Positions 17,085-29,111 of a stretch of 33,374 nt of DNA are shown one piece after another. Below the pieces are notes generated by a model. It searched no databases. It saw only the letters and a list, made by a program, of their open reading frames with translations, and was not told the origin of the DNA. The stretch lies in contig BEHR01000003.1 of assembly GCA_002898555.1 (NCBI GenBank), forward strand, positions 92,289 to 125,662, written 5' to 3'. Within the stretch, counting starts at the first letter, position 1. The number at the start of each line of letters is the position of its first letter. A program made the position numbers and the translations under genes. Source of the stretch: a bacterium HR15. GTDB taxonomy: Bacteria > Armatimonadota > Fimbriimonadia > Fimbriimonadales > GBS-DC.

Positions 17085-17185
17085 GAAATTTTTTCTCTGA
17101 CCCAGCTTCGCTCAAAATTTTCTTCTCCGGGGTACCCGTCTGGGTCGGAGAAGAAAATTTTGGAGTACCCCAGAGAAAAAATTTC
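17085..17185. repeat. Palindromic mosaic repeat, island A (nested inverted repeat)
   Basis: Two nested perfect inverted repeats. The outer arms are 15 bp (17085-17099 and 17171-17185, GAAATTTTTTCTCTG type). The inner arms are 17 bp (17113-17129 and 17146-17162, AAAATTTTCTTCTCCG type). GACCCAG/CTGGGTC is a further short pair, and GGGGTACCC sits at the centre. It lies between the clp-like gene stop and the nadA promoter. The 45-bp left half recurs, reverse-complemented, in island C with two substitutions and one indel. Confidence 0.9.
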
Positions 17186-17215: not shown

Positions 17216-19294
17216 TTATCCTTCGGTTGCGCTCAGCCGGTCATTTTGCACGAGGATGCGCACCTGGCGCGGTGGTGCACCGCGTGCCTCAGGTGCCAGC
17301 GGCACATACGGTGCCAGCTGCAACAGCAACTCCCGCTCAATCACGCGCTCCAACTCGCGTGCGCCATAATGCTCGCTGTAGCCCCGCTCTGCCAACCATT
17401 CCAGCGCGGCTTCCTCCACCACTAACTCCAACCCGCGCTGCCGATATATCGCCTGCAACCGCGGTAAGAAGCGCGTCTCGATAATCTGTCGAAGGTGGTG
17501 CTTCTCCAGCGGTTGAAAAATGCAGAGCGCGTCGATGCGGTTAATAAATTCGGAGGGAAAATTCTCCGCAAACAATCGGAGCCAGTCCTCGGGCGAATGT
17601 TTCTCGCGTAAAAAGCCCACCGCTGCTTCGGGATGCAGATTCGAGGTCATCACAATAATCGTGTCGGCAAAGGAGACACGCCTTCCCTGTGCGTCAACAA
17701 AATAACCTTCGTCAAAGATCTGCAATAAAATTTGCAGCACATTCTCGTGCACTTTTTCGATTTCGTCCAGCAAAACCACGCAAAAGGGGGTCTCCGCCAC
17801 AAAATCGAAGAGGGAACTGCCTGCTTCAAGCCCTGCATAGCTCGGTTCTGCCCCGATGAACCGTGCCACCGTATAGGGTTCCGAAAACTGGTTCATATCG
17901 AGGCGCAGCAAACGGTCACGCGAGCCAAAAAAATATTCCGCCAGCGCATAGGCAGTTTCACTCTTACCAACCCCTGTCGGTCCGACAAACAAAAAGACTC
18001 CGTTCGGGCGTTCAGGGTACAGGTCAAGCCGTCGGATTTTGAGGCTGATTGTATTCACCAGGGTCTCGATCGCATGCTCTTGCCCGATGATATGGCTCTG
18101 CAGGAACGCCCTAAGCCCTTGCAGGTGCGCCACCAGGGATTGCTCCCCGTTGCCGATTGGTAGCCCGGTGATTTGCTTCATTGCTTCCCACACGATGGGT
18201 GGCGCGACGCGCTTCTGTCCTCGCATGCGTGTCATCCCCACCGCATAGTCCAGCACCGTAATCGCTTTGTCGGGGAAGGGGCGATGCTGGATGCGCTCCT
18301 CTGCAACTTGCACAATGAGCGCGAGCGTCTCGTCGTCTATCTCGATGCCCAGCTGGGTATGGAAATGCTCGCGCAATTGCTGAAGCACCCACAGCGTCTC
18401 CTCCGCGTTGAGTGGGCGCACGGGGATGGGTTGGAAGCGTTTGAGCAGATCGGGCGCGCGCCCGATCTGGCGGCGGAAGCTCTCCATGCTACTCACCGCC
18501 CCAATCAACGGGATGCGCCGCGTTACTAAATCGCTTAGGAACTGCAGGCGCAGCGCCTCCAAAGGGGGTGCCGGCGCGTTCAGAAAGATCTCAAAAGGCT
18601 CCAGATAGAGAATGGCACCAGATGTGCTTGCCTCCTCCACCAACGCCAGATAAAACTCGGGCGCGTCGAACAGCTGCGGAAAGACAATCACGGGTCGGTC
18701 GTGTAGCGGTTGGGGCGCGTCGCCCGCCACGATGCGCTGTGCCAACCCCTGCACGACTGCCCGCCGCCCGACCCCCTCCAGTCCCACCAGCACTGCATAG
18801 GGGTTAATGGGGCGGCAAAGCGCTTCCATCAGGCTGTTGATTTCCTCGTCGCGCCCGACCACACGCGGCAGTGCGCCCGCCCTCACCTGCTCATTCAAGT
18901 TCACCCCCATGCGCAAAGCAGAAATGTTAGACGAACTCTCACGCATACTCGCACTTCGCAGTTGAAGCAGGGCTTGACCCAGATGGCGAAGACAAATGTG
19001 GCGCGCCTTCTCGCGCATCGCCTGCTCTATTGCCATGTGCATCACTTGCTCGATGGAAAAGGCGAACGCCGTATCCCCCGCCTCCAACTCCTGCTGGAGC
19101 GCGTGCTGAAGCTGCTGGATATCCAGGTCAGGCGCCAGCTGGTGGAGTGTTTGCGGATGATGTTGGGCGAAGATCAGCAGCAGATGGCGTGCATCGGGCT
19201 GCATCCCCGCTTTTTGTGCCAGTGTCCACGCTTGATGAAGAAGGCGGTCCACTCGCCAGGAGAAAGCGACTCGTTCGTTGGCAGAGCGTGCCAT
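17216..19294 (-). CDS. ClpA/ClpC-like AAA+ ATPase with a degenerate first ATPase module
   Basis: A 692-residue Clp-type unfoldase. The N-terminal 115 residues resemble the Clp N domain (H-L-L-L-I-F-A-Q). Module D1 (about 145-360) keeps the fold, but its Walker A is G-L-E-G-V-G-R-R (171-178), with Arg for the catalytic Lys. Its Walker B region is I-L-Y-L-E-P-F-E, lacking D-E. D2 (about 395-690) is intact: G-P-T-G-V-G-K-S near 436, V-V-L-L-D-E-I-E-K, sensor 1 T-S-N and sensor 2 G-A-R-E-L-E-R. A-V-G-F near 556 sits where ClpA carries its ClpP-binding IGL/IGF loop. ATG 19294 is preferred over 19303 because the -10 overlaps 19303. It is shorter than ClpC (about 810) and lacks an obvious middle domain. 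Confidence 0.85.
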   Translation of the reverse strand: MARSANERVAFSWRVDRLLHQAWTLAQKAGMQPDARHLLLIFAQHHPQTLHQLAPDLDIQQLQHALQQELEAGDTAFAFSIEQVMHMAIEQAMREKARHICLRHLGQALLQLRSASMRESSSNISALRMGVNLNEQVRAGALPRVVGRDEEINSLMEALCRPINPYAVLVGLEGVGRRAVVQGLAQRIVAGDAPQPLHDRPVIVFPQLFDAPEFYLALVEEASTSGAILYLEPFEIFLNAPAPPLEALRLQFLSDLVTRRIPLIGAVSSMESFRRQIGRAPDLLKRFQPIPVRPLNAEETLWVLQQLREHFHTQLGIEIDDETLALIVQVAEERIQHRPFPDKAITVLDYAVGMTRMRGQKRVAPPIVWEAMKQITGLPIGNGEQSLVAHLQGLRAFLQSHIIGQEHAIETLVNTISLKIRRLDLYPERPNGVFLFVGPTGVGKSETAYALAEYFFGSRDRLLRLDMNQFSEPYTVARFIGAEPSYAGLEAGSSLFDFVAETPFCVVLLDEIEKVHENVLQILLQIFDEGYFVDAQGRRVSFADTIIVMTSNLHPEAAVGFLREKHSPEDWLRLFAENFPSEFINRIDALCIFQPLEKHHLRQIIETRFLPRLQAIYRQRGLELVVEEAALEWLAERGYSEHYGARELERVIERELLLQLAPYVPLAPEARGAPPRQVRILVQNDRLSATEG

Positions 19295-19301
19295 AGATAA
19301 C

Positions 19302-19307
19302 ATGATA
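19302..19307 (-). promoter_or_regulatory. Predicted -10 of the clp-like gene (AGGTATCAT)
   Basis: Minus strand TATCAT followed by exactly 7 nt and then ATG 19294. Transcription would start at the A of the ATG, giving a leaderless mRNA. The other in-frame ATG (19303) lies within this element. Confidence 0.5.
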
Positions 19308-19394
19308 CCTTTGCCGAAGAGGCAGTTCGAAAATCCACTTGGTGGAGGGCTGAGCTTCCTCCCGAGCCGTTGGAAAGGGTTTTGGGGCAGACAC

Positions 19395-19489
19395 GATTTT
19401 CTTTTCCGGGGTAGCCCAAAATTTTTTCTCTGGGGTACCCCAAATTTTCTTTTCCGGGGTACCCTGCTGGGTCGGAAAAGAAAATTTTG
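19395..19489. repeat. Palindromic mosaic repeat, island B
   Basis: Modules in order: ATTTTCTTTTCCGGGGTA with GCCC (19396-19417), AAAATTTTTTCTCT with GGGGTACCCC (19418-19441), a second copy of the first type (19444-19464), then CTGGGTC and an inverted copy (19473-19489). The last two form a 15-bp perfect stem. The island lies between the phosphoglucomutase stop and the clp-like promoter. Confidence 0.9.
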
Positions 19490-28926: not shown

Positions 28927-29111
28927 AACGAGTAGTGAGTAGCAAATGGCGAATGGTGAATGAAATTTTTCTCTGGGCTACCCCGGAAAAGAAAATTTTG
29001 AGCGCAGCTGGGTCAGAGAAAAAAATTTCGGATGGCAAGGAGCAAATGGTAAATGGTGCGCAACAGATGGATAAGATACCACTCACCACTCACCACTTAC
29101 TACTTGCCACC
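28927..29111. repeat. Heptanucleotide repeat arrays flanking island C
   Basis: Left of the island, 7-bp periodic units GAGTAGT, GAGTAGC, AAATGGC, GAATGGT run from 28930. To the right lie two AAATGGT units (29044-29057). Then the inverted form ACCACTC, ACCACTC, ACCACTT, ACTACTT occupies 29078-29105. The right array overlaps the first codons of the next gene (L-T-T-H-H-L-L-L). The two sides are partly complementary. Confidence 0.75.
28962..29029. repeat. Palindromic mosaic repeat, island C
   Basis: GAAATTTTTCTCTG (28962-28975) and CAGAGAAAAAAATTTC (29014-29029) are near-perfect outer arms. Between them are CTACCCC, an inverted GGAAAAGAAAATTTTG module and GCTGGGTC. Positions 28984-29029 match the reverse complement of 17085-17129 with two substitutions and one extra A. 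It sits between the 5'-nucleotidase and the glycosyltransferase genes. Confidence 0.9.

Follow-up and report, generated by a model that had tools for sequence, protein, structure and literature searches.

There is still no agreement on why a Clp machine has two ATPase rings; Walker mutants made in the laboratory point to D2 as the ring that does most of the work, with D1 assisting. The 33,374-nucleotide stretch of DNA analysed here (the window) contains a clp gene whose product has lost the ATPase motifs of D1 and kept those of D2. The question is what kind of Clp protein this is, and what a D1 of this kind may still do.

Domain layout and motifs of the two rings

In the ORF listing of the window, the clp variant gene is a minus-strand ORF at 17216-19303 encoding a double-AAA+ Clp protein of 695 amino acids (aa), of which 13 full-length orthologues were found. 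The first-pass annotation had placed the gene at 17216-19294; its end at 17216 holds, whereas 19294 is the second in-frame ATG and the ATG of the ORF lies at 19303. All features given below are on the minus strand. Pfam assigned AAA_16 and AAA_lid_9 to the D1 module including its lid (18203-18916), and AAA_2 (145 bits) and ClpB_D2-small (58 bits) to the D2 module (17309-18100; large domain 18100-17507, small domain 17506-17309). AAA_2, ClpB_D2-small and AAA_lid_9 were detected in all 14 proteins, indicating the double-ring Clp architecture of tandem AAA+ modules with a C-terminal Clp small domain. The N-terminal domain (18917-19273), helical in the AlphaFold2 model, is of a divergent Clp_N type: the Pfam Clp_N family matched it in none of the 14, and its profile aligned with ClpB/ClpC N-domains with a probability of 96.8 and an E-value of 2.6e-10 (hhalign, single comparison). 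The middle (M) domain is absent, as had been proposed: the stretch from the D1 lid to the linker is as short as that of ClpA, and the ClpC and ClpB of the same genome have long inserts.

Canonical D1 motifs are GxxGxGKT for Walker A, hhhhDEhH for Walker B and GATT for sensor 1. The motifs of the variant were read directly and aligned with those of E. coli ClpA and of the ClpB and ClpC of the same genome. The Walker A position of D1 reads GLEGVGRR (18761-18784), where Lys and Thr are both replaced by Arg, and the Walker B position reads AILYLEPFE (18590-18616), where Asp is replaced by Glu and the catalytic Glu by Pro. The mutated positions are themselves conserved, with the two Arg and the Glu invariant and the residue next to the Glu being Pro or Ala in 14/14. 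At the sensor-1 position, IGAVSS (18488-18505) stands in place of IGATT and the Thr of GATT is lost. In addition to the Walker A and B degeneration that the first-pass annotation had listed, and which recurs in all 13 orthologues, both substrate-gripping loops are lost, KYRG of pore-1 by deletion and the pore-2 segment by replacement with NAPAPPLEALR. Another element missing from that list is the trans Arg-finger position (18434-18448), which retains one Arg, the other being Lys (LLKRFQP versus ALERRFQP); LLKRF is invariant in 14/14. Walker A and B are thus not present in both modules, as they are in a standard double-ring Clp protein, and D1, judged from its sequence and model, presumably cannot form a normal ATP site.

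Nevertheless, D1 is a complete AAA+ module in topology. The AlphaFold2 model, built from a 14-sequence alignment and numbered one residue lower than the ORF, had a mean pLDDT of 80, with most blocks of D1 at 80-94. Strands at 168-172, 204-207, 230-233, 265-269 and 289-293 alternate with helices and are followed by a helical lid, so that residues 145-360, where a missing AAA+ fold would have spoken against the annotation, contain the full strand and helix order. The pTM of 0.51 makes the relative placement of the domains unreliable. Foldseek aligned the chain with ClpC, ClpB and ClpA.

The D2 motifs are all intact, namely Walker A GPTGVGKS (17960-17983), Walker B VVLLDE (17762-17779, continuing as VVLLDEIEK), sensor 1 MTSN (17639-17650), the Arg finger EFINRID (17531-17551) and sensor 2 GAR (17357-17365, within GAREL). 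The catalytic residues are invariant across the 14-sequence alignment, including the Arg of the finger and the whole of GAR (14/14 each), in agreement with the earlier claim that D2 keeps its Walker motifs and sensors. The D2 pore-1 loop, which keeps its tyrosine, reads SYAG in the window copy alone (17831-17842); all 13 orthologues have GY[VI]G.

The VGF tripeptide (17612-17620) does occupy the place of the ClpP-docking loop, since it aligns exactly with IGL of E. coli ClpA and with IGF of the ClpA encoded by G002, a genome of the same family. It agrees with the [LIV]G[FL] pattern of ClpP partners and appears as [VM]GF in 14/14, with Gly and Phe invariant and the neighbouring loop residues variable. 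The loop is shorter than that of ClpC, and three residues are weak proof of ClpP docking.

Distribution, selection and relatives of the variant

The 13 orthologues are 52-57% identical in the alignment, and all come from the same family of the Fimbriimonadales (Armatimonadota) and carry the same D1 lesions. Counting its own genome, the variant occurs in 14 of the 18 genomes of this family. Of the 11 with a completeness of at least 90%, 10 have it, and the sole exception, G002, carries a canonical clpS-clpA pair. Beyond the family, match scores fall to ClpB/ClpC-like levels. A local mutation, which orthologues with an intact D1 would have betrayed, does not account for the lesions, as the dead D1 is common to all 14 and identity is only about 35% with L119, the closest relative in which neither ring is damaged. 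For six closer pairs, dN/dS was 0.07-0.18 in the large domain of D1 and 0.01-0.14 in that of D2. Purifying selection therefore acts on D1, although the constraint is weaker than on D2. A pseudogene or an assembly error was rejected in view of the 14 independent genomes and of dN/dS well below 1.

The variant clade was recovered in the D1, D2 and joint trees (98-100%), whose sampling covered ClpL and left out ClpE itself. In the joint trees a 15-row group (99%) comprised the variants, a set of Armatimonadota proteins with a ruined D2 and L119. Constraining the variant to group with ClpA or with ClpC was rejected by the AU test (p = 0.03 and p = 0.006, respectively), which agrees with the first-pass view of a lineage-specific protein other than standard ClpA, ClpB or ClpC. 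Long branches call for caution, and the trees do not fix the branching order inside the 15-row group; the shared stretches ETLCR, RPN and TGLPIG favor the group beyond tree length effects.

The sister clade (L184-L189, L198-L214; 99% SH-aLRT), a reciprocal dead-D2 group newly described here beyond the single sequence of the first-pass annotation, comes from other families of the Armatimonadota and was found in 17 of 291 genomes of that phylum. Like the variant, these proteins have no M-domain, a divergent N-domain, ETLCR and RPN, and mostly [LIVAT]G[FLY] at the place of the ClpP loop. In contrast to the variant, their D1 motifs are intact, and Walker A, Walker B, Arg finger and sensor 2 of D2 are gone. 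The two types were never seen together in one genome. L119, a 739-codon open frame from Aminicenantes, belongs to the same clade and shares ETLCR, the TGLPIG linker, RPNGVFLF, an IGF loop and the lack of an M-domain; unlike in the variant, neither ring is damaged and the KYRG pore loop is present. Among 199 genomes of its phylum, L119 itself was the only intact-ring relative.

The ancestor of the variant probably had two working rings. On balance, we lean towards a single Clp ancestor with two motors, one of which was lost for good in different Armatimonadota lineages, that of D1 in the Fimbriimonadales and that of D2 in other families. The outcome would be a pair of double-ring ClpP unfoldases, mirror images of each other, with one motor each. 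If true, these opposite losses amount to a natural experiment on the need for each Clp ring. With the variant, its ruined-D2 sister and the intact relative side by side, one could tell apart hexamer assembly, substrate grip and pulling force; as the dead D1 has neither pore loop, it isolates a scaffold role.

Degenerate D1 modules were also observed elsewhere. A set of actinobacterial Clps (L131, L132, L135, L138-L140, L142-L145, L148, L150) has a degenerate D1 (e.g. GERGSGRTS, VVDDLD), an intact D2 and an [LIV]GF-type loop, and sits on a branch of its own, where D1 was apparently lost independently. On a separate branch, the Clp-like proteins L127, L128, L141, L146 and L149 combine a degenerate D1 with a D2 that has neither an Arg finger nor a clean Walker B. 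Because these proteins lie on separate branches, ring inactivation may have occurred repeatedly.

ClpB has a long coiled-coil M-domain and no ClpP tripeptide, and ClpE has a zinc-binding N-domain. The variant resembles ClpC and ClpB in fold, D2 motifs and a divergent Clp_N-type N-domain, but both have an M-domain insert and an active D1; it lacks the half-length M-domain of ClpC and does not group with it, and it scored 363 bits against the ClpB equivalog cut-off of 1232. The Clp_N-type N-domain separates it from ClpE, and the trees from ClpL. ClpA is closer in layout, with the order N-D1-D2, no M-domain and a tripeptide loop at the same place, but has an active D1 and ClpS as partner and forms a separate clade; the variant scored 347 bits against the NCBIfam cut-off of 993, and ClpS was not found in its own genome. 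One phylum, the Actinomycetota, likewise has an extra double-ring class, ClpI, whose members may or may not carry a ClpP motif; its published definition, however, includes an M-domain and ATPase modules that are intact (PMC10149685), and identity with ClpI was rejected on these grounds. Outside the Clp proteins, Pex1/Pex6 is a natural D1-inactive double ring, in which the D1 ring has neither ATPase nor pore aromatic and the D2 ring is the motor (PMC4490564), although it is a eukaryotic AAA heterohexamer of an unrelated subfamily with no protease partner. No published description of such a dead-D1 Clp protein was found in the literature searched. The variant adds a double-ring class beyond ClpA, ClpB, ClpC, ClpE, ClpL and ClpI, and selection has retained a D1-dead Clp as a stable gene family, with a sister family bearing the opposite lesion.

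Candidate mechanism and competing explanations

The canonical clpC and clpB that the first-pass annotation proposed to look for are both present in the genome, which encodes ClpB, ClpC, ClpX and HslU-like proteins besides the variant and a single ClpP adjoining ClpX. Proteins of ClpB, ClpC, ClpX and HslU size were found in each variant-bearing genome checked, and no neighbor genes of the variant were conserved in six other genomes, giving no hint of a substrate. Since the neighbors differ and the other Clps are present, the variant looks like a stand-alone additional unfoldase.

From the motifs, the model and the analogy with known double rings, we consider the variant probably a ClpP-partnered double-ring unfoldase in which D2 is the sole ATPase motor and D1 a passive, nucleotide-free entry ring. 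Six subunits would assemble with the D1 ring stacked on the D2 ring; the former would be a scaffold and entry vestibule that places the divergent N-domain and helps to hold the hexamer, and D2 alone would pull the substrate and thread it into the single ClpP. The variant would be a fifth unfoldase beside ClpB, ClpC, ClpX and HslU, and its own N-domain, not ClpS, would select its substrates. A putative role of D1 limited to hexamer assembly or gating, as the first-pass annotation had suggested, is plausible. Of the two motors of E. coli ClpA, D2 is the principal one; D1 is auxiliary and aids processivity and recognition (PMC9663308). The short ClpP loop, the SYAG pore of the window copy and the lack of conserved neighbors are points against the reading of a D2-driven, ClpP-partnered unfoldase.

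The retained Arg finger has no D1 ATP site of its own to act on, and on that point a mixed hexamer fits better. This makes the main rival of the D2-driven reading a pseudo-subunit assembling with ClpC (or ClpB), whose D1 site the finger would complete while its own D1 stays silent and the canonical machine is tuned. The invariance of LLKRF despite the dead cis site, the ClpB- and ClpC-sized paralogues in every variant-bearing genome checked, and further one-ring-dead or D1-only Clp paralogues in its own genome are consistent with this. The Arg may, however, be structural, since RFQP belongs to the D1 core. D2 is fully self-sufficient, the gene is unlinked to clpC and there is no M-domain to match that of ClpC. 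We regard the mixed hexamer as rather unlikely. A remodelling chaperone or disaggregase independent of ClpP, with VGF incidental, is an unlikely reading as well; it agrees with the short loop and with the double-ring ClpI subclasses that lack the ClpP motif (PMC10149685), but the Gly and Phe of the tripeptide are invariant amid variable loop residues, and the ruined-D2 sisters also mostly keep the motif. It is very improbable that the variant is a decaying ClpA orthologue. The missing M-domain and the canonical clpS-clpA of the near-complete G002, which lacks the variant, can be cited for it, whereas the low dN/dS in both D1 and D2, the retention in 10 of the 11 most complete genomes and the rejected grouping with ClpA (AU test, p = 0.03) disfavor it.

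Other paralogues and sequences around the gene

The same genome encodes a 903-aa Clp (L152:11537-14248 on contig C42; also L006) with an intact D1, a C-terminal response-regulator receiver domain (PF00072, 40 bits) and a degraded D2, in which Walker A (GPPNTGKT) is kept, Walker B reads CVIYVRGLE and the Arg finger is missing. As an obligate partner of the variant it was rejected, because no orthologue was found in 60 relatives. Directly upstream of clpC lies a 498-aa paralogue of ClpC consisting of Clp_N and D1 only (L151:1992-3488, contig C20), with FIDNLE at Walker B and the Arg finger lost; a similar protein occurs in G004 (C14:61312-62781).

A defence gene was rejected, since the PADLOC matches covered the generic AAA part only, and a promoter scan gave nothing above chance. 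The repeat GGGTACCCCGGAAAAGAAAATTT lies on both sides of the variant gene (window positions 17115-17137, 19394-19464 and 28976-28998) and has five copies in the window, against none expected by chance; translation-like traces of it were also found on contig C15.
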